Shown here in pieces: positions 16,581-33,389 of a stretch of DNA of 37,054 nt. The notes under the pieces were generated by a model that was not told the origin of the DNA, did not search any database, and was given only the letters and a program-made list of their open reading frames with translations. The stretch is taken from positions 1 to 37,054 of the IMG/VR virus record IMGVR_UViG_3300022198_002861; one strand, given 5' to 3'. The stretch is from a virus. Each line of letters begins with the position of its first letter. Position 1 is the first letter of the stretch. Made by a program: the position numbers and the translations under genes.

Positions 16581-19148
16581 ATGGCAACAGCAGAAGAGTT
16601 ATTTGCACAAATACAAAGTTACGAGCCTCCAGCTATTCCAGCAGACAAAGCTGCTGAATTTGCAGCTGCTCGGCAGGCTGTGCAAGAAGCTCAAAGCAAT
16701 GTTGATTTATATGGCAGATTAGGGACCGCTCTTTCATTTGGTGCGCAAGGTTTAAGCCTCGGGTTGTCAGATGAGGCATTGGCAGGGTTAGGGGCACTTA
16801 CTGGCGGCCCTTCTTATTCAGAGCGACTTGCTGCACAACAAGCAGAGCGAGAAGCCATGCGAACTGCTTATCCTGGGACTGCATTAGGAGCGGAAATTGT
16901 TGGGGGGATAGCTGGAACTATTCCAGCAGCTACAATGGCAGCGCCTGGTCTTGCGTCTAGATTGTTATTAGGAGCAACAGGCAAGGCAGCCCCCACGGTT
17001 GGGCAACTTGCAGCAATAGGAGCTACGCAAGGTGGCATATACGGCGCAGCTTCAGCAGAGCCAGGACAGCGATTGGCTGGGGGGTTAATGGGTGGCGGGA
17101 CCGGTGCTATTGCTGGCCCTGTGATTGGTAAGGCTGCTCAATATGCTACCGAAACACTTGGAGGAGCGCTGGCAAAAGCTGGAACTACATTAGGTAGCGA
17201 GCGTGGAGCGATTACTTTAGGCGGGGCAAGGTACACGCCAGAAGAGATTCAGCTTGCTAAGGTATTATCGCAAGCCGCACCAGAGACAGTACCGACAGCA
17301 GAGCAAGCATTACGAAGGGCGGGAGAGCTTGGGAAGCCAGTGTTTATTCCTGAAGCTGTAGGCTCTCCATCGTTATATCAACAAGCTAAATTAGTAGCTA
17401 ATTATCCAGCTTCTATTGAAGTGGCAAAAACAGCTATTGAAGAGCGTGCGGCTAATGCGGTTAATCGCATTACTGAAACCCTAGACAAGGTAGCTCCAGT
17501 CCGCAACGTAAACGCTGGAGCTAATAGACTTGTAGAAGGCGCAAAGTCTTTACTTGAGGATTTGGGCGTAGCTCGGAAAGAAGCTACTAAAGGATTATAC
17601 GAAGCGGCTTTTGAGCGGACTCCACAGCTAACCGCAGATAATGCAGTAGAGCTGGTACAAAGCAATCCAAGAATACAGCAAGCCATTAAAGCCGTTAGGA
17701 AAGAGCTTCCCGAGTTTGCAGATAAGCCTGATACTAGCTTGGAAGTATTGCATCAAGCGCAACAATACTTAAGCGGCAAAGCTAGATCGCTAAAAAATAA
17801 ATTTACTGCTGGTAAAGTTACCGATGCTCGCAATGCTTTAATGAAAGCAATTAAAGACGAGTCCCCTGATTATGCACAAGCTACTAATACCTTTGCACAA
17901 ATGTCTAAGGGGCTGACGGCTAAAGAGCAAAGCAAAATAGGATTTCTAGCTAATGTTAGCCCTGATAAGCCAGAAACTATCGGGAGAGTATTTGTCCTCG
18001 ACCCTGATGTTATTTCTAGCTTACGCGATGATTTTGTCGCCGCTGGTCGTCTTGATGAATGGGAATCTGGTGTTCGTGCCTACCTACAAAGATCGGTAGA
18101 AAAAGCACAGGACGAGCGAAACCCAATTAACAAGATTATTGGGTCACCTGCTTTACGGGATAAATTGCGTGCTGCTCTTGGTGATAAGTATGATGCTATT
18201 ATTGAGCCGCTAACTATAGAGCAAAAGATTCTTAAAGGGCAAAGGGAATATTTTGCGGGCAGTCCTACAACTCCGCTTAGACAAGCAGAGGAGGCTCTTG
18301 GGGAAAGTGTTGGCGCAATTAGAAGCGCAATTCAAGCTGGCAAAGACCCAGTTAATGCTGCTGGTAAATTGTTGTCTAAAATGCTTGGCGGTCGTCAAGA
18401 TGATGAGTTTTATAAGAATTATGCCAAGTTATTATTCAGAGAGCCAGAACAGGGCTTAGAAACTCTTGGACGCATTAGCCAACTAACTTCTGCTTTGCGT
18501 GGCGCTAGACAAGCTGGAGAGGCGGTCGGTGGCGTTGCTGGGACAGCAGCAGGGCGAGAAACTGCGGCGGGGTTAGATATTATTCAGGAGCAAACAAAAG
18601 CTAGGAGAGGAGAGGTGCTTGGCGCTGGAGCTATTGCAACTACAGCAATCAGTCCAGAAATGGACGATCTGTTTCGTCAAATTCAAGAGTTTGAGCCAAA
18701 TACGACGTCTGTACCAGCCCAAGAATCAGTTAAAGTAGGCAAGCAAAACATCAGCATCCCTACAGGTGAAGAGTATGCGCCACCTGCGCTAGTTAAAGCT
18801 GTTATGCAGGTAGAGTCAGCTGGCAAGACTAACGCTGTTAGCGGGAAAGGAGCTACAGGCTTAATGCAGCTTATGCCTGCTACAGCTAAAGAGTTAGGCG
18901 TAAACCCTAAAAACCCTGAACAGAATGTAGAAGGTGGTAGCAGATATTTGCAGCGAATGTTAAATAAGTATGATAGCCAAGAGATTGCATTAGCTGCATA
19001 TAACTGGGGGCCAGGTAATATTGATAAGGCTATTAGAAAGGTTAGAGCTGCTGGCAAGAGGGTAACTTGGCCTAATATTCTTAATGAAGTAAGGGTGCCT
19101 AAAGAAACTAGGCAATATGTATCAAAGGTAACTAATTTAATTGGATAG
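16581..19148 (+). CDS. Large internal virion protein with C-terminal lytic transglycosylase domain
   Basis: 855 residues. N-terminal 200 residues have several hydrophobic Gly/Ala stretches (ALGAEIVGGIAGTIPAATMAAP). The middle 250-650 is helical. The end (about 735-850) is a soluble lytic transglycosylase domain: PPALVKAVMQVESAGKTNA with the catalytic Glu in VES, GKGATGLMQLMPATAKELG, then ALAAYNWGPGNIDKAI. It would open peptidoglycan and form a channel during DNA entry, like T7 gp16. The domain is C-terminal here, whereas in T7 gp16 it is N-terminal. Confidence 0.85.
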   Translation: MATAEELFAQIQSYEPPAIPADKAAEFAAARQAVQEAQSNVDLYGRLGTALSFGAQGLSLGLSDEALAGLGALTGGPSYSERLAAQQAEREAMRTAYPGTALGAEIVGGIAGTIPAATMAAPGLASRLLLGATGKAAPTVGQLAAIGATQGGIYGAASAEPGQRLAGGLMGGGTGAIAGPVIGKAAQYATETLGGALAKAGTTLGSERGAITLGGARYTPEEIQLAKVLSQAAPETVPTAEQALRRAGELGKPVFIPEAVGSPSLYQQAKLVANYPASIEVAKTAIEERAANAVNRITETLDKVAPVRNVNAGANRLVEGAKSLLEDLGVARKEATKGLYEAAFERTPQLTADNAVELVQSNPRIQQAIKAVRKELPEFADKPDTSLEVLHQAQQYLSGKARSLKNKFTAGKVTDARNALMKAIKDESPDYAQATNTFAQMSKGLTAKEQSKIGFLANVSPDKPETIGRVFVLDPDVISSLRDDFVAAGRLDEWESGVRAYLQRSVEKAQDERNPINKIIGSPALRDKLRAALGDKYDAIIEPLTIEQKILKGQREYFAGSPTTPLRQAEEALGESVGAIRSAIQAGKDPVNAAGKLLSKMLGGRQDDEFYKNYAKLLFREPEQGLETLGRISQLTSALRGARQAGEAVGGVAGTAAGRETAAGLDIIQEQTKARRGEVLGAGAIATTAISPEMDDLFRQIQEFEPNTTSVPAQESVKVGKQNISIPTGEEYAPPALVKAVMQVESAGKTNAVSGKGATGLMQLMPATAKELGVNPKNPEQNVEGGSRYLQRMLNKYDSQEIALAAYNWGPGNIDKAIRKVRAAGKRVTWPNILNEVRVPKETRQYVSKVTNLIG

Positions 19149-23114: not shown

Positions 23115-23710
23115 TCTTCCTCCTTCGGTGGCTCAGGTAGCGGTTGCCAGTGAGTGACATTAAGATGTTCAGTGCCTAGCGTATTAGTCCATTGTCCTTT
23201 GCCGTAATTGCCATAATAGGCCAGCTCGTAACCGTCAATGCACATAGCTAATACCATTGGCGTACTATCCGGCAACCTATCCTTTACGCTAATCCAACCA
23301 TCTGAATTATTCAAAGAGTTCATCACCTTGTCGGCATCAGCAAGCTGATCCTGTAGCTCCTGTATTCTAGCCTCAGCCTCTTCCAGCGCTGCGTGTGCGT
23401 GTTCTTGTGCGGCTTGGTAGCCAGCGAGGAAATCATCCTTACACATGCACCAAACGATAAACTCTGGCCCTTGCTCTGGACACCGCCAGTTTGCGTGTTC
23501 CTCTGCTAACTCTTCATAAGCCTCGTGCCTAGCCTCAGCCTCTTCTAGTGCTGCGTGAGCATGCTCTTGTGCTGCTTTATAGCCAGCGAGGTAACAGCTT
23601 TTCATTTGCTTTTTAACGCAATATTCCAAGCTCTTTACAAATTGCTGGGGCATCTCATAGAGTCTTTCAGCGCATTTCTCCGCTGCGAATTCTTCAGGTG
23701 TTTTACTCAT
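23111..23710 (-). CDS. Paralogue A of the MSKTPEE array, with DUF551 tail
   Basis: 199 residues from the ATG at 23710. The longer frame from 23746 lies inside the neighbour and lacks a site. Begins MSKTPEEFAAEKCAERLYEM. Two copies of the array module (YLAGYKAAQEHAHAALEEAEA and FLAGYQAAQEHAHAALEEAEA) flank a Cys-rich spacer (RCPEQGPEFIVWCMCKDD). The C-terminal 65 residues have WISVKDRLPDSTPMVLA and VTHWQPLPEPPKEEE, the DUF551 pattern common in phage proteins. Translation starts within the GAG/AAG-rich end of the upstream gene by an 8-base ATGAGTAA overlap. Function unknown. Confidence 0.75.
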   Translation of the reverse strand: MSKTPEEFAAEKCAERLYEMPQQFVKSLEYCVKKQMKSCYLAGYKAAQEHAHAALEEAEARHEAYEELAEEHANWRCPEQGPEFIVWCMCKDDFLAGYQAAQEHAHAALEEAEARIQELQDQLADADKVMNSLNNSDGWISVKDRLPDSTPMVLAMCIDGYELAYYGNYGKGQWTNTLGTEHLNVTHWQPLPEPPKEEE

Positions 23711-23948
23711 TTTCCTTCTCCTCCTCTTCTGACTCCCAGGTGACATCGGCTAGTCGCTCGCGCAAAGATGCAATTCTTGCCTCAGCCTCCTCTAATGCTG
23801 CGTGCGCGTGTTCCTGTGCTGCTCTGTAGCCAGCTCTATAACAATCCATACCAACATAGTATGAAACGTCATTTCGAGCTTTAAGCGAAACGTACAGAAT
23901 TGCTTGGCAATCAAGTTCCTCCGCCAATTCTTCAGGTGTCTTATTCAT
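23703..23948 (-). CDS. Paralogue B of the MSKTPEE array
   Basis: 81 residues, MNKTPEELAEELDCQAILYV. One module (YRAGYRAAQEHAHAALEEAEA) then ASLRERLADVTWESEEEEKENE, which also ends paralogue C with one change. The acidic tail codes for the next gene's ribosome site (GGAGGAGAAGG). The stop overlaps the next start by eight bases. Appears a shortened copy of C. Cytoplasmic and helical. Function unknown. Confidence 0.75.
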   Translation of the reverse strand: MNKTPEELAEELDCQAILYVSLKARNDVSYYVGMDCYRAGYRAAQEHAHAALEEAEARIASLRERLADVTWESEEEEKENE

Positions 23949-24375
23949 TTTCCTTCTCCTCCTCTTCTGACTCCCAAGTAATATCAGCTAGTCGCTCGCG
24001 CAAAGATGCAATTTTAGCCTTAGCCTCTTCTAGCTCTGCGTGAGCGTGCTCTTGTGCGTCTTTATAGCCTTCGTTATAACCAGCAATAAAACTATTCTCT
24101 GTCCAGAGTCGAACTCCAGCATCATCGCTTTTATTTTTGGCGTGTTGCGCTGCTTTTACTTGCACCGGATGTCCGTGGTTAAAACACTCAGTTTCGATAA
24201 TGTGCTCTGCTACTGCATCGTGTATTTTCATAGCTGAGTCAAATCCATTGGAATGTCCCGCCTTAAATCCAGCGAGAAAAGATTGATTAACCACACCATA
24301 ACAATAGGCTTGTGTTGCTATGTCAATGTTCTCTTTAGCCCATTCTTTGCATAATTCTTCAGGTGTCTTACTCAT
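23941..24375 (-). CDS. Paralogue C of the MSKTPEE array
   Basis: 144 residues from ATG 24375 with GGAG ten bases upstream. The longer frame to 24480 is rejected. Begins MSKTPEELCKEWAKENIDIA. Contains a degenerate module (FLAGFKAGHSNGF) and a second one (FIAGYNEGYKDAQEHAHAEL), separated by a His/Cys-containing stretch. It ends LRERLADITWESEEEEKENE, nearly identical to B. The stop overlaps B's start by eight bases. The family probably arose by duplication. Function unknown. Confidence 0.75.
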   Translation of the reverse strand: MSKTPEELCKEWAKENIDIATQAYCYGVVNQSFLAGFKAGHSNGFDSAMKIHDAVAEHIIETECFNHGHPVQVKAAQHAKNKSDDAGVRLWTENSFIAGYNEGYKDAQEHAHAELEEAKAKIASLRERLADITWESEEEEKENE

Positions 24376-24649
24376 CTTGTGGAATACTCCTAACTTTATG
24401 CCAGTTGCAATTGTCGGAAACTCCCTTAGGGTCATAAGCTCGCTCATTAAACCAAAGCGTTCCATCATCACACAGCGCAATTAAATCTTGGGTAGTTCCG
24501 GTAATTTGTATAATTTTACGGCCATTAATTAAAGCCTGTGCTGCTTTGTAACCAGCGAGGAAGCAACTACGAGCGAGAGGATGTTCGCTTTTATAAATAG
24601 CAAGGTTATTAATATAAATTTGTGCTAATTCTTCAGGTGTTTTACTCAT
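24368..24649 (-). CDS. Paralogue D of the MSKTPEE array
   Basis: 93 residues from ATG 24649. The longer frame to 24691 is in the acidic gene. Begins MSKTPEELAQIYINNLAI with one module copy (CFLAGYKAAQALING). The rest is a different C-terminal domain (DLIALCDDGTLWFNERAYD and NWHKVRSIPQDE), a DDG..W pattern with a closing W..V+.IP that recurs in small phage proteins. Thus the shared N-terminus is joined to unrelated C-terminal parts. Function unknown. Overlaps C by eight bases. Confidence 0.75.
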   Translation of the reverse strand: MSKTPEELAQIYINNLAIYKSEHPLARSCFLAGYKAAQALINGRKIIQITGTTQDLIALCDDGTLWFNERAYDPKGVSDNCNWHKVRSIPQDE

Positions 24650-24797
24650 CTTCTTCCTCCTCTTCTTCCTCAGCCTCTTCTTCAACCTCAAAATCTACGT
24701 CATCATCATCAGGAGCAAGGTAATCATCCTCAGCCCTGGCGTAATCCTCAGCTGTTTGCCTATCTTCTTCTATCCTCATATCTCTGTAATCTTTCAT
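24642..24797 (-). CDS. Very acidic small protein
   Basis: 51 residues from ATG 24797, which has AGGAG four bases upstream. Frames starting earlier lack a site. More than half of the residues are Asp or Glu, ending in a nearly pure Glu run (EEEAEEEEEEEDE). The first 25 residues are mixed (MKDYRDMRIEEDRQTAEDYA). The charge is that of DNA-mimic or chaperone-like proteins, but no known anti-restriction sequence is recognised. The Glu codons (GAG/GAA) also supply the ribosome site for paralogue D, and the stop overlaps its start by eight bases. Confidence 0.6.
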   Translation of the reverse strand: MKDYRDMRIEEDRQTAEDYARAEDDYLAPDDDDVDFEVEEEAEEEEEEEDE

Positions 24798-28547: not shown

Positions 28548-28584
28548 AAAAGCCTCTTCACCGACCAAGGACAAAGAGGCTTTT
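28548..28584 (+). terminator. Hairpin, terminator or attenuator before the initiator gene
   Basis: AAAAGCCTCTT pairs with AAGAGGCTTTT over a 15-base loop. The T run ends at 28584 and the initiator ribosome site (AGGAG) begins at 28585-28589, so the hairpin abuts the site. It may reduce read-through or influence initiator translation. Confidence 0.65.
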
Positions 28585-28596
28585 AGGAGCATATAC

Positions 28597-29199
28597 ATGA
28601 CTAACTTAACACAACCTGGGTTCTTTCGCCAAGTCTTTGATGTCTATCTTGACTTGGGACTGAGCTATCACCAAGCAGCTTTAGTAAATTATATCCACCG
28701 CTGGAATGATACCGGCCAAGAATGTTTTGCCGCTGTAGAAACCATAGCGGCAGAATTACGGCTTCCACTGAGAACAATGAGGCGAGTTATCGACCGTTCC
28801 ATAGCTGAAGGCATCATTGTAGGTAGCAGTGGAAAAGGTAGGGCGCGAGTCCTTAAAGTTACCGATACATTCCTGGAGCGAGTAAAATCACAGCTAGAAA
28901 CCCAAGTGGCCAAAGTGGACACCTTAAGTGTCCATTCTGTCACTTCAAGTGGCCACTTTGTCACAGTAAGTGGCCAAAGTGGACACCTATCTAGATCTAT
29001 ATCTAGATCTATACCTAGATCTACTTATCCAAACTTACCTTCTACTAAACTTGATCTAGTTAGTAACAAACTCGATCTAGTTAGTAAAAGTAATGATCTA
29101 GATCTAGAGCAACTAGATCAGTCTAGTAACAAATTAGATCAGTATACTATGCACTGGGATGAAGAAAGAAAAGCTATGGTGAGGCGAAGATGCCGATAA
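28597..29199 (+). CDS. Replication initiator-like protein (lambda O-like organisation)
   Basis: 200 residues with AGGAGC upstream. N-terminal 1-90 is a winged HTH: FFRQVFDVYLDLGLSYHQAALVNYIHRW, then CFAAVETIAAELRLPLRTMRRVIDRS. This resembles replication initiator/HTH_36 proteins that bind iterons. The rest (about 100-180) is low complexity (Ser/Thr/Leu/Asp-rich), being encoded by dense DNA repeats (28904-29140). The organisation, HTH domain followed by origin-like repeats within the gene, is that of lambda O. It ends with a short basic tail RRRCR. Function is inferred. Confidence 0.7.
   Translation: MTNLTQPGFFRQVFDVYLDLGLSYHQAALVNYIHRWNDTGQECFAAVETIAAELRLPLRTMRRVIDRSIAEGIIVGSSGKGRARVLKVTDTFLERVKSQLETQVAKVDTLSVHSVTSSGHFVTVSGQSGHLSRSISRSIPRSTYPNLPSTKLDLVSNKLDLVSKSNDLDLEQLDQSSNKLDQYTMHWDEERKAMVRRRCR
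28904..29145 (+). other. Candidate replication origin: iterons and GATC/CTAG-rich repeats inside the initiator gene
   Basis: First part (28904-28988): the tandem 9-mers AAGTGGCCA and AAGTGGACA occur as an identical pair at 28904 and 28968. Extra copies are AAGTGTCCA at 28926, the palindrome AAGTGGCCACTT at 28947-28958 and an inverted TGTCACTT at 28938. The two pairs are read in different codon phases, so the DNA and not the peptide is conserved. Second part: CTAGATCTA three times at exactly 12-bp spacing (28991, 29003, 29015), GATCTAGTTAGTAA at 29053 and 29074, and nine GATC and nine CTAG sites in about 150 bp. Such clustering suggests initiator sites and an unwinding or methylation-sensitive region. 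Confidence 0.7.
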
Positions 29200-29248: not shown

Positions 29249-29290
29249 ACCCCTAGACTGAGATAGATATCGCAATCTAGGGGTGTTTTA
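29249..29290 (+). terminator. Terminator between the convergent rightward replication operon and the leftward operon
   Basis: ACCCCTAGA pairs with TCTAGGGGT across an 18-base loop, followed by GTTTTA. It overlaps the end of the leftward gene at 29288 and would stop the rightward replication transcript. Confidence 0.7.
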
Positions 29291-29548
29291 GAGGCCGATC
29301 TTTTCAATCTCTTTTAAGAGATCTCTGCCCTGTTCAGTTATCCAAATAATCCCAATGCCGCTGCCATGAGTGACCAGGCCTGCAGCGTCAAGCACTTTAG
29401 CCGAGAGTTCAACATCAACAGAAGCATAGGCCGTCCAATCTTCATTAGAGGCCGCCAAGCGTAACACGCTCAAAAGCAAATTCGCTGGCGAATCGGTCCC
29501 ACAATCGCAGAGACCGCATCGGCTGTAAATTAACTGCGCTTTTGTCAT
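29288..29548 (-). CDS. Small winged-helix-like protein, unknown
   Basis: 86 residues. Four N-terminal cysteines or so (SRCGLCDCGTD) may bind a metal. The C-terminal half (LSAKVLDAAGLVTHGSGIGIIWITEQGRDLLKEIEKIGL) has the helix-strand layout of a small winged-helix domain (a LxAAGLV ... W.T..G...L pattern). Last gene of the second leftward operon, close to a convergent terminator. No clear ribosome site, so it may be coupled to the upstream interrupted frame. Confidence 0.6.
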   Translation of the reverse strand: MTKAQLIYSRCGLCDCGTDSPANLLLSVLRLAASNEDWTAYASVDVELSAKVLDAAGLVTHGSGIGIIWITEQGRDLLKEIEKIGL

Positions 29549-29557
29549 GCTGATGGC

Positions 29558-29791
29558 CTAGCTACATGAAAGGTTAAAAGTAACGTTGATTATATCGGCG
29601 AGGCTTTTCGTGCGAGGTCTCCAACCCCAGCACTTTTGACCATCAATTTCAACAGTGCCAAATTGATATTTGCAGCGGACGCCTTGCTTAGCTGCTACCC
29701 TTGAGACTCCAACACTAGTAGCAGCTTATGAAACCATGCAAAGTAAATTACCGAGTTTGTCTACTACTGGGACCTTTGTTTTGTTTCTCAT
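29558..29791 (-). pseudogene. Interrupted small gene with in-frame TAA
   Basis: From ATG 29791 (AGAGGAATAT site, as in neighbours) the frame encodes 21 residues (MRNKTKVPVVDKLGNLLCMV) to TAA at 29726-29728. It then continues open in the same frame for 55 codons to TAG at 29558-29560. The second part is coherent (GVSRVAAKQGVRCKYQF, EIDGQKCWGWRP) and resembles a small NUMOD-like DNA-binding motif. CAA to TAA would be one base. It could be a nonsense mutation, sequencing error or regulated read-through. TAA is the normal stop elsewhere. Confidence 0.6.
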
Positions 29792-29810
29792 ATATTCCTC
29801 TATGTTAACG

Positions 29811-30215
29811 TTAAAAGTCAGAAAAGAATTCCTCAATAATCATCCTTTGATCTATCTCGGCCGGTTCCTCGCATTCCTTATAAAACGGAGACCACGGTGG
29901 TGTAGGTTGGTACCAACTGTAGTGAGCTTTAAAGCCGTCACCCTCCCAAGTAAGCAGGTTTCTTTCGTCGAACCAACCCACCGCTTCAACCTCGGCGCGT
30001 TCAGAGAGAGCGCGGATAATCGTCTCGGCAAAGTCTTCAGTCTCCGACTCAAACTTAACTAGCCTATACCTACCGTTGCGTGAGTCATAGCCCGTTGCCA
30101 GCACCTCAAAGTAGTTACCGGGGTATTCCTCCCGGTAGCTAGCAAGTAGATCTGCTACCGCTACTGCGCCAGTCAGGTGGTTAGTAATTTTAAGTATAAA
30201 GTTGTAATCGCTCAT
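29811..30215 (-). CDS. Hypothetical protein of the second leftward operon
   Basis: 134 residues with the common leader and AGAGGAATAT before ATG. Acidic with many aromatic residues. Begins MSDYNFILKITNHLTGAVAVADLLASY, a DxNFxLKITN pattern shared with several unknown phage proteins. It ends in an acidic tail (EIDQRMIIEEFFSDF). No membrane segment. A putative gene on the other strand (29670-30062) is a shadow. Function unknown. Confidence 0.7.
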   Translation of the reverse strand: MSDYNFILKITNHLTGAVAVADLLASYREEYPGNYFEVLATGYDSRNGRYRLVKFESETEDFAETIIRALSERAEVEAVGWFDERNLLTWEGDGFKAHYSWYQPTPPWSPFYKECEEPAEIDQRMIIEEFFSDF

Positions 30216-30239
30216 ATATTCCTCTGTTTTAAGTTAAAG

Positions 30240-30521
30240 TTAGTAAATCCCGCCTAGGTCGCTATCGCTATCGAATTGTGACCAATAGGCCTCCTCTATC
30301 TCGGCCTCATTACCATCCAGTCTGTTGGCCTCATCCCATAGCTGTTCTAACTCCTGTTTGCTTAAGTGTATACAGTTACCATCCGGCTCTATAAGGTCGT
30401 AATCTGCTAATTTGCCGTTGGTTATAAGGTAGTCAAGTATGCAATCGACCGTGTAGCACTCTGCCTCAAACTCATCGACTGTTACGTTTTTACTGTTTAT
30501 AAGTAGGTATTTATCACTCAT
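30240..30521 (-). CDS. Small acidic protein, unknown
   Basis: 93 residues. Strongly acidic in the C-terminal half (LDGNEAEIEEAYWSQFDSDSDLGG). Begins MSDKYLLINSKNVTVDEFEAECYTV. It follows the repeated leader AGGAAATATATG. The palindrome at 30555-30579 is 34 bases upstream. Could be a protein mimic or interaction domain. No family recognised. Confidence 0.65.
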   Translation of the reverse strand: MSDKYLLINSKNVTVDEFEAECYTVDCILDYLITNGKLADYDLIEPDGNCIHLSKQELEQLWDEANRLDGNEAEIEEAYWSQFDSDSDLGGIY

Positions 30522-30554
30522 ATATTTCCTATATTTTAATTTAAAGTTAGTACG

Positions 30555-30579
30555 AACTTGTAAGTATTATTTACAAGTT
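30555..30579. repeat. Perfect inverted repeat AACTTGTAA-N7-TTACAAGTT
   Basis: Nine-base arms separated by seven bases, located between the small gene at 30583-30726 and the acidic gene at 30521. There is no U tract, so a terminator is unlikely. A protein-binding site or RNA processing signal is possible. Confidence 0.65.
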
Positions 30580-30582
30580 AGT

Positions 30583-30726
30583 TTATTCAAATAAATCAGC
30601 GATATAAGCCTCAAAAGCCGCTATCGCCTCGTCTAGCTCATAAAAGTAGTAAACCTGCTTAATATACTCGCCGTTTACTATGTCCGTTATAAGTATACTT
30701 CCGTTGTGTTGGTGTTCTACTGTCAT
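30583..30726 (-). CDS. Small protein, unknown
   Basis: 47 residues, MTVEHQHNGSILITDIVNGE then YIKQVYYFYELDEAIAAFEA. It starts after a weaker form of the shared leader (ATAGGGTAAAATATATG). A small compact fold with strand-strand-helix is possible: ILITDIVNGEYIKQVYYF then DEAIAAFEAYIADLF. The reading frame fits the otherwise empty gap between the acidic gene and the clamp-like gene. Confidence 0.6.
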   Translation of the reverse strand: MTVEHQHNGSILITDIVNGEYIKQVYYFYELDEAIAAFEAYIADLFE

Positions 30727-30759
30727 ATATTTTACCCTATTTTAAGTTAGCGGAATTAC

Positions 30760-30806
30760 TAACTATAATCGGGTAGCTACTCTCACTAGCTACCCTGTTA
30801 TAGTTA
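30760..30806 (-). terminator. Large hairpin after the clamp-like gene
   Basis: TAACTATAA / TTATAGTTA outer arms and GGGTAGCT / AGCTACCC inner arms, separated by a 2-base bulge on each side and a 9-base loop. It lies just beyond the clamp-like stop. Without a U run it is more likely an RNA end-stabiliser, processing or weak termination site. Confidence 0.6.
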
Positions 30807-30807
30807 C

Positions 30808-31368
30808 CTATCGCAACGGCATGATAATAGCCATGAGGTTGTCGCAAGTTATATAGACACCAGGGTAACGTAGATCTAGATCACTATTGCGGCTTAAGGT
30901 CTGCTGATGGTCAGCGATTAAGGCATCAATGAAATAATCTAAGTTAATCTTTACACTATAAGGCTCAAATACTTCACAAGCGAGAAAGTTAAATTCGAAA
31001 CTTAGCTCCGGAGTAGTAAAATTAATACGCAAGTTGTTCGCGGCGAAAGTAAATAGGATGCTTGCCTCTTGGCCTCTTGGTATAAGAGTAGCTAGCTTCC
31101 TAAGCTTGGCTATCTCTTTCTTGCTAAAACGAAAGCTTGCTATAGCTACTGTAGTTTTGGGTAGTACGGCATCAATGCATGGCGCTGAGTCAATAGTTAA
31201 GTCACTATTGAGATAGTGAGGTGTAGCAGTCGGCAAGTCATTAGCTAAGTGCAGTCTGTGTCCGTCGGTACCGCATAATCTATTGGCTTCCCTGAAGGCT
31301 GATATCAGGTTATAGCGACCTTTGTCTGTACTTACCGCGCGATTGCAATATTCAGTGTAATTTATCAT
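30808..31368 (-). CDS. DnaN-like sliding clamp fragment (putative)
   Basis: 186 residues from ATG 31368. The longer frame to 31392 has no better site. CGTDGHRLHLANDLP matches the ATDGHRLA signature of the bacterial beta clamp. SVKINLDYFIDAL matches the NxxYLLDAL helix, and the extreme C-terminus DNLMAIIMPLR matches the VVMPMRL end. This is about half a normal DnaN (about 370), so it holds only one and a half to two domains. A ring would need a different stoichiometry. Next to a J-domain and initiator gene. It may tether host polymerase to phage DNA. Homology is inferred from motifs. Confidence 0.6.
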   Translation of the reverse strand: MINYTEYCNRAVSTDKGRYNLISAFREANRLCGTDGHRLHLANDLPTATPHYLNSDLTIDSAPCIDAVLPKTTVAIASFRFSKKEIAKLRKLATLIPRGQEASILFTFAANNLRINFTTPELSFEFNFLACEVFEPYSVKINLDYFIDALIADHQQTLSRNSDLDLRYPGVYITCDNLMAIIMPLR

Positions 31369-31405
31369 ATCTTTATTTCTCTGTTTTAACACACCAGCTT
31401 AATTG

Positions 31406-31456
31406 CTAGTGATCAATCGGTAGCTAGTAGTTAGCTAGCTACCTGTTGAGCACTAG
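31406..31456 (-). terminator. Long hairpin after the J-domain gene
   Basis: 22-base arms 31406-31427 and 31435-31456 pair with three mismatches over a 7-base loop. The inner part GGTAGCTAG/CTAGCTACC resembles the hairpin after the clamp-like gene. It overlaps the J-domain stop codon (31453-31455). No clear U run. Confidence 0.6.
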
Positions 31457-31944
31457 TGTATGGCCTTGCGCTTATCACTATCTTTAAATTCCTTATAACC
31501 ATACCTCATGGCTAAATGAGATAAGCCATATCGACTAGGTCGACCGTAGTACTTCGTTGCGGTGTAGTACCAACAAAGCCTATTTGGGTTCCATTTAAAG
31601 CCATTAGCTTTTAAGAGCTCTTTATATGGTTTGGTGTCACCTGTTACCCATAACCATGTCCCTATCAGCGCAACATTCACCCCGGGAAGCCTTGCACCGA
31701 CAATAAAAGCTATCTTATCTATTACAGATTGCTCTAAATTCTCATCATAATTATAGCGGTGATCCTTACCTGACTCACCTTTACTAGTGCTACCGTGTAG
31801 CCGCTTTAAGGCTTCGTGGTACTGATAGTTAATCGCTTGCATGGTAGCAGTCTCACCGCCTAAATCGGGATGGTGCTTAAAAGCTAAACGCTTATACTCG
31901 CTCTTAACGTGTTCAACACTAAATAAGTCATCAAAGTATCTCAT
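31453..31944 (-). CDS. J-domain protein with C-terminal Trp-rich domain
   Basis: 163 residues, first gene of the second leftward operon. N-terminal J domain (about 1-55): YFDDLFSVEHVKSEYKRLAFKHHPDLGG with the HPD tripeptide needed to stimulate DnaK, then ATMQAINYQYHEALKRL. After a Ser/Gly linker comes a second domain (about 95-130) with LIGTWLWVTGDTKPYKELLKANGFKWNPNRLCWYY. This is the W.tG.T.P+..LK..GF+W....CWY pattern found in other phage J-proteins. Like lambda P/DnaJ dependence, it may help remodel a replication complex. CGGAG site. Confidence 0.85.
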   Translation of the reverse strand: MRYFDDLFSVEHVKSEYKRLAFKHHPDLGGETATMQAINYQYHEALKRLHGSTSKGESGKDHRYNYDENLEQSVIDKIAFIVGARLPGVNVALIGTWLWVTGDTKPYKELLKANGFKWNPNRLCWYYTATKYYGRPSRYGLSHLAMRYGYKEFKDSDKRKAIH

Positions 31945-31981
31945 ATTATCTCTCCGTTTAGTTTAGTTAAGTTCAAATAGC

Positions 31982-32005
31982 ACAGTTAACTGTATAAAGT
32001 ACAGT
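31982..32005. promoter_or_regulatory. Operator candidate with three ACAGT/ACTGT half-sites
   Basis: ACAGTTAACTGT (31982-31993) is a perfect palindrome and ACTGTA-N5-TACAGT (31989-32005) a second, sharing a half-site. The second overlaps the -10 box of the leftward promoter (32003-32008). The divergent HTH gene at 32137 is the likely repressor. Confidence 0.65.
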
Positions 32006-32032
32006 ATAAGTACTAAGATGCTACTTAGTCAA
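32003..32032 (-). promoter_or_regulatory. Leftward promoter P2
   Basis: TTGACT (32027-32032) and TATACT (32003-32008) on the - strand, 18-base spacer containing GCATCTTAGT. This nearly repeats the spacer of P1 (27953-27981), and the bases before the -35 (AAATAC versus AAACAC) also agree. It drives the J-domain and clamp operon. Confidence 0.75.
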
Positions 32033-32136
32033 GTATTTTATGCAAATAGTTTCAATTATTTTATGCGGCTAGTAATATCGGGTAGTTATAAATAGGGGCT
32101 TGCGTTAGAGTATAGTGAGAGATTAGCTTAGATAAT

Positions 32137-32436
32137 ATGTGCAATATTGTCCGCCATTCGCCTAAACGTTCGCAATATAATCCAGCTCCGGCGAAGATAC
32201 TTGAAGGGTATCGGCACACGTTGCCTAGTGCGAGGGGGAACCTATATCTAGCAGTAAGGAAGGCAATGGGATTAACTCGCAAGCCGTTCGCTGATGCGCT
32301 AGGGATTAATGTGGCATCATTACGGTACCGTGAGCGAGCTAAGCAGCTGTATCATCCACTGGAAGTGTTGGTGTTATATCAGGTCAGTGGTATGACATGG
32401 GACGAGTTTGGTAAATTACTTAATGATATCGCATAG
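32137..32436 (+). CDS. HTH transcriptional regulator, divergent to the J-domain operon
   Basis: 99 residues. The middle (about 43-70, AMGLTRKPFADALGINVASLRYRERAKQL) has a Xre/Cro-like helix-turn-helix. It is followed by YHPLEVLVLYQVSGMTWDEFGKLLNDIA, where conserved Trp/Phe in a closing helix resemble small phage regulators. The ribosome site is poor, so expression may be low or start at another codon. Its position across from P2 and the operator suggests repression of the leftward operons or a switch. Confidence 0.65.
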   Translation: MCNIVRHSPKRSQYNPAPAKILEGYRHTLPSARGNLYLAVRKAMGLTRKPFADALGINVASLRYRERAKQLYHPLEVLVLYQVSGMTWDEFGKLLNDIA

Positions 32437-32669: not shown

Positions 32670-33389
32670 ATGAGCGATAGCGATTTAAAACAGGACTCGG
32701 ATACAGAGGCTGACCCAATTTTAAAAAATCCCGAATTACCCAAGCCGTATTACCAGGACGATTATGTAACGCTGTACCACGCTGATTGCAGGGAGGTGTT
32801 GCCGTTATTAGAGCCTGTAGATTTAGTGCTTACTGACCCGCCTTATGGGATAGGGGAAGCTAGAGATAAAAGCAAAAGTCGAAATAGAGGAATAAGACTA
32901 GCCGTACAAAAAGATTACGGCAATTTTGACTGGGACGATAAGCCAATAGACCAAGACTTAATCAATCAGCTAATTACTCAACCAGCAATAATCTTTGGGG
33001 GTAATTACTATACTATGCCACCTTCAGCTTGTTGGTTAGTTTGGGACAAACATCAAACAGGGGATTTTGCTGATTGTGAATTAGCCTGGACTAATCTGCC
33101 TGGTGCTGTAAGGCGTATTAATTACCTTTGGAATGGGATGATTAAACAACGTCCAGAGCAAAGATGGCACCCTACACAAAAGCCATTGGACGTTATGAAA
33201 TGGTGTATTACTCAAGCTGATACTAAACTTAAAAACAAAATAACTACTATTTTAGACCCGTTTGCTGGTTCAGGAACTACGCTTAGGGCGGCTAAAGATA
33301 TGAGCCGTAAGGCTATAGGTATTGAGCGAGAAGAACAGTATTGCGAGGTAGCAGCAAAGCGATTGCGTCAGGAGGTATTAGGTTTATGA
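32670..33389 (+). CDS. DNA methyltransferase, beta-class (N6-A or N4-C)
   Basis: 239 residues. Motif IV TDPPYGIG (residues 55-62) comes before motif I-like ILDPFAGSGTTLRAA (about 194-208) with HPTQKPLDVMKW between, the order of beta-class enzymes (N6_N4_Mtase). DPPY indicates adenine-N6 or cytosine-N4 methylation using S-adenosylmethionine. No recognition domain allows prediction of the site. Probably protects phage DNA from host restriction. The weak ribosome site makes the start uncertain. The stop overlaps the next start (ATGA). Confidence 0.85.
   Translation: MSDSDLKQDSDTEADPILKNPELPKPYYQDDYVTLYHADCREVLPLLEPVDLVLTDPPYGIGEARDKSKSRNRGIRLAVQKDYGNFDWDDKPIDQDLINQLITQPAIIFGGNYYTMPPSACWLVWDKHQTGDFADCELAWTNLPGAVRRINYLWNGMIKQRPEQRWHPTQKPLDVMKWCITQADTKLKNKITTILDPFAGSGTTLRAAKDMSRKAIGIEREEQYCEVAAKRLRQEVLGL

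Follow-up and report, generated by a model that had tools for sequence, protein, structure and literature searches.

A putative replication initiator gene of an environmental phage contains iterons and a candidate lambda-type internal origin

The window, by which we mean the whole stretch of DNA analysed here, is a virus record from IMG/VR (IMGVR_UViG_3300022198_002861) with a length of 37,054 bases, and it carries at positions 28597..29199 on the plus strand an open reading frame (ORF) of 200 amino acids that probably codes for a phage replication initiator. Based on AlphaFold2 models, which were made for five family members, amino acids ~8-108 (28618..28920, plus strand) are predicted to form a winged helix-turn-helix (wHTH) DNA-binding domain, for which a sequence-only reading of this DNA had also argued; the block-mean pLDDT is 71-90 for amino acids 11-100, and Foldseek matches the domain to MarR-type wHTH proteins and to the centromere-binding protein AspA. 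Amino acids 106-175 have pLDDT values below 50 and are predicted to be a disordered linker, which is followed by a short helix at the C-terminus. The DNA coding for the linker holds four iterons, and an A+T-rich tract begins at the end of the fourth.

Repeat and dyad searches placed the iterons, all on the plus strand, at 28904..28924 (AAGTGGCCAAAGTGGACAC followed by CT), 28926..28943 (AAGTGTCCATTCTGTCAC), 28947..28964 (AAGTGGCCACTTTGTCAC) and 28968..28988 (a 21-mer identical to iteron 1), with start-to-start spacings of 22, 21 and 21 bp. Their offsets within the gene (307, 329, 350 and 371) put them in codon phases 1, 2, 2 and 2. The outer two units, which share the 21-mer AAGTGGCCAAAGTGGACACCT, start 64 bp apart and are therefore read in phases 1 and 2. 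This pair, and its reading in two phases, had been noticed in the sequence-only reading, which missed the units at 28926 and 28947 as well as the dyad symmetry. Iterons 1 and 4 are inverted repeats, in which GTGKCCA-N3-TGGMCAC can be read on both strands; in iterons 2 and 3 the left arm is unchanged but the right arm is shorter by one base, so that their dyad is only partial. A dyad search of the 37 kb that allowed up to two mismatches gave almost no other matches, and a two-unit iteron pattern, when run against all IMG/VR contigs, matched only the five contigs with the initiator gene and was not found in species genomes. An exact 19-mer match on a further contig (L014) was judged to be due to chance, as it lies in an unrelated ORF of 641 amino acids and the initiator gene was not found on that contig.

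The relatives used for comparison are five contigs (L002-L006) with four distinct genes, L002 and L003 being identical in this region. Both codon phases of the iterons are kept in all of them. L004 has four units; in L002, L005 and L006 there are five, the extra iteron being carried by a 42-bp insert of 14 codons. This is comparable to the Stx phages, whose O protein is longer by 13 residues and which have six iterons where lambda has four (PMC7466680). When differences were counted among codons for identical residues, 35-46 synonymous changes were found in ~85 N-terminal codons and only 0-2 in 25-38 iteron codons over the comparisons made: 35/85 against 2/25 between the window and L002 (p=0.0016), 38/84 against 2/26 between the window and L004 (p=0.0004), and 46/86 against 0/30 between L002 and L004 (p=1e-8). 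Furthermore, not one of 20,000 synonymous recodings of amino acids 103-131, which followed the phage's own codon usage, kept all four left arms, the largest number retained being two. Selection on the DNA, as proposed from the two reading phases, thus finds support in both tests and, as the two phases yield different peptides from one DNA sequence, it is close to certain that the repeats function at the DNA level. The linker sequence can serve as code and as DNA site at once, since its peptide seems to be little constrained.

The candidate unwinding element adjoining iteron 4 is a tract with 69% A+T at 28987..29140, to which no strand is assigned and which contains ATCTA/CTAGATCTA repeats. The three repeats with 12-bp spacing reported in the sequence-only reading correspond to CTAGATCTA at 28991, 29003 and 29015, and its 14-base repeat with 21-bp spacing is GATCTAGTTAGTAA at 29053 and 29074. 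By nearest-neighbour stability, the tract is the third most easily melted of the window's 100- and 150-bp stretches; the two more meltable 150-bp stretches, 30468-30617 and 31915-32064, lie mostly between listed ORFs. In the relatives, the corresponding 150 bp are also A+T-rich (60-67%) while the encoded protein diverges strongly, with 36 of 48 codons differing non-synonymously between the window and L002. The expectation that related phages would conserve the DNA despite divergence of the protein is thus borne out by the iterons and, in composition, by the tract. Nine GATC (28994-29140) and nine CTAG (28991-29126) are indeed present, as had been counted before, and they exceed chance: no other 150 bp of the window hold more than 3 GATC, and among recodings of amino acids 132-181, 0.02% have as many GATC as observed, none has as many CTAG, and 0.06% are as rich in A+T. 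However, this array is not conserved, the compared 150 bp containing eight GATC in the window, three in L002 and one each in L004-L006, and because relatives do without it we rejected it as an essential element. GATC is depleted over the window as a whole (50 found, 86 expected) and is also low in related contigs, the A+T tract of the initiator gene being the exception, a hint that restriction or methylation is being avoided. The window further encodes an N6/N4 DNA methyltransferase at 32670-33389 (PF01555, 3e-22), whose target may be connected with the GATC cluster. One might speculate that a solo initiator opens the in-gene origin and, needing no P-type loader, recruits the host helicase, while the GATC cluster serves as a methylation-sensitive control; we regard this as unlikely, and its weak point is that the relatives keep only 1-3 GATC in the tract.

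From these sequence features we infer that the gene very probably encodes a phage replication initiator and contains a lambda-type internal origin that is bound by its own product. In the mechanism that we propose, the N-terminal winged-helix domain, probably as a dimer, would bind the four iterons (half-site GTGKCCA, in dyad arrangement) in its own linker DNA. As the iterons are spaced by 21-22 bp, the dimers would be located on one face of the helix, and an O-some-like complex could form that bends the DNA. This complex would then melt the A+T tract that adjoins iteron 4 on its 3' side, and the host helicase would be recruited, either directly or via a loader of the host or an unrecognised one of the phage, probably by the C-terminal tail. 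In the last step, the genome would be copied by host enzymes. It is of note that the C-termini of the window protein and of the L002 and L004-L006 proteins fall into three sub-groups that look unrelated. Since the wHTH domain and the iterons are kept while the C-termini differ by sub-group, the tail that may recruit the helicase appears to have been exchanged among members of the family.

The protein shows weak profile matches to HTH_36 (0.0011), RPA_C (0.011) and DnaD_N (0.019), and among the PHROG families it matches 270, 'replication initiation protein' (0.0047), and 391, 'replication initiation O-like' (0.01). Several points count against the proposed function: the HTH_36 match scores 19.1 bits and stays below the cut-off of 25, the PHROG support is weak (E 0.005-0.01), and the wHTH fold is, as the Foldseek matches illustrate, common to many repressors. 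In addition, GC skew, which had been suggested as a check, does not mark the site, although it is dominated by gene orientation and hence uninformative here, and neither a lambda P (Phage_lambda_P) nor a DnaC/IstB loader was matched in this possibly incomplete record. Profile searches of the record also found no DnaB-type helicase and no family A polymerase, which leaves the initiator as the only recognisable initiation gene; the absence of helicase, loader and polymerase genes is no proof, since the record may lack part of the genome. Protein searches returned no relatives of the initiator in named phages, plasmids or species genomes, a search of solved structures by sequence gave nothing relevant, and a host could not be assigned by prophage search, neither the protein nor the iteron pattern leading to a relative in species genomes.

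The fold and the dyads would also fit a transcription regulator that binds operators in its own gene and thereby forms an autoregulatory roadblock, as MarR-type repressors make up most of the best matches among solved structures and dyad sites suit a dimeric repressor. The four sites are, however, located ~300 bp inside the gene, 21-22 bp apart and next to a meltable tract, a sigma-70 scan found no promoter-like site within the gene, and the layout is common to O-like initiators, so that we give this explanation only a small chance. Even smaller is the chance that the array is a parS-like centromere and the protein the partition adaptor of a plasmid prophage: although Foldseek ranks the centromere-binding protein of pNOB8 second and no tyrosine-integrase domain was found, a centromere needs no adjoining meltable tract, and a search for a ParA-type ATPase, the control of which was positive in 14/14 genomes, found none in the window. 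A mere slippage product, or a set of protein repeats with no function as DNA, could be imagined in a linker that is predicted to be disordered and may tolerate any sequence, but one DNA sequence in two codon phases gives different peptides, and the synonymous sites are frozen in the relatives; the synonymous-rate test contradicts this explanation and we attach next to no weight to it.

An initiator that binds an origin within its own gene is known from phage lambda, in which dimers of O bind to iterons that lie within O as inverted repeats, and the adjoining A+T-rich region is thereby opened (PMC5043065). The comparison with lambda O had already been drawn in the sequence-only reading and is supported by the anatomy and by the relatives, which keep the repeats, in both phases, along with the initiator. 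In both lambda O/ori-lambda and the window, a DNA-binding domain comes first, followed by four iterons and then by an A+T tract, all within the gene. The four lambda iterons are likewise dyads, spaced by 20-24 bp and read in several codon phases (PMC5043065); annotated at 39034, 39054, 39078 and 39101 in a gene that starts at 38686, they have offsets of 348, 368, 392 and 415 and phases of 0, 2, 2 and 1. The spacing of about two helical turns, the dyad symmetry and the disordered linker are shared. In contrast, PF04492 (Phage_rep_O) matches lambda O (5.7e-36) but neither the window protein, for which no match was obtained at E values up to 0.1, nor the two relatives scanned; the iteron sequence is different, no P gene was found, and the window protein has 200 amino acids whereas lambda O has 299. 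Origins of this kind are known from lambda; new here are the family and its iteron, together with the absence of a recognised loader. Repeated initiator sites that adjoin an A+T tract are also found in the origins of iteron plasmids such as P1, RK2 and pSC101 (PMC5043065). Unlike in those origins, the outer units of the window are dyads, the array is inside the gene, and the vicinity of the iterons lacks a strict DnaA box (TTATNCACA), the only one in the window being at 17870.

The nearest named phage, as judged by the terminase, is Pseudanabaena phage Pam5 with 41.6% identity. Its genome (ON014757; L018:34535-35338) has an unannotated ORF of 267 amino acids with an HTH_36 match (3e-13). This ORF contains three in-gene 22-bp palindromes (GAGGGGTCAGAATGTGACCCCC) in more than one codon phase, and its homologues include phage proteins named 'replication protein O' and 'primosomal protein I'; it is likely an initiator with an origin that the deposited annotation missed. 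Using Tandem Repeats Finder (TRF; period 15-26, score at least 50), in-gene arrays were found in 12/16 O-like initiator genes, including those of the window and lambda, and in 5/171 other genes; the iterons of lambda itself are more divergent and do not pass this threshold. As Pam5 had been noticed through its repeats, a second set was drawn without looking from an evenly spread list of matches, and here arrays were present in seven of the eight O-like initiator genes, which are not fully independent since LESphi3 is close to LPPA33, and in none of 19 neighbouring genes. In several O-like genes, the repeat copies span more than one codon phase. The HTH_36 O-like initiators, such as those of SfV, LESphi3, Pam5 and Mvi-Yong1342-1, resemble the window protein in having a wHTH domain followed by ~17-24-bp in-gene repeats, but differ from it in their iterons and C-terminus and in that it stays below the HTH_36 cut-off. 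An hhalign comparison of the window family with these proteins gave an E value of 3e-5 and a probability of 73% over 47 columns of the wHTH domain only, and was run without an unrelated-wHTH control.

Just upstream of the initiator start, a hairpin on the minus strand (28548..28584) resembles an intrinsic terminator for leftward transcripts; a stem is kept at the matching place in L002, L004 and L005 with a different sequence. Leftward ORFs at 29288-32282 point towards the candidate origin, and antisense transcription may therefore cross it. Elsewhere in the window, the gene at 22509-23114 matches a PHROG family described as 'ferredoxin' (3e-37) with no match to a Pfam model, and several small leftward genes at 23367-24652, one of them with DUF551, have repeated segments in common as if they had been duplicated (66- and 27-nt families, 77-96% alike to the reference copy).

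Taken together, these observations assign a putative internal origin of the lambda type to a family of environmental phages without an isolate. Where a wHTH gene has repeats that are read in more than one codon phase, they mark a site that acts at the DNA level; this provides a test that needs only sequence, and with such in-gene arrays one could propose origins for many temperate phages that are still uncharacterised.
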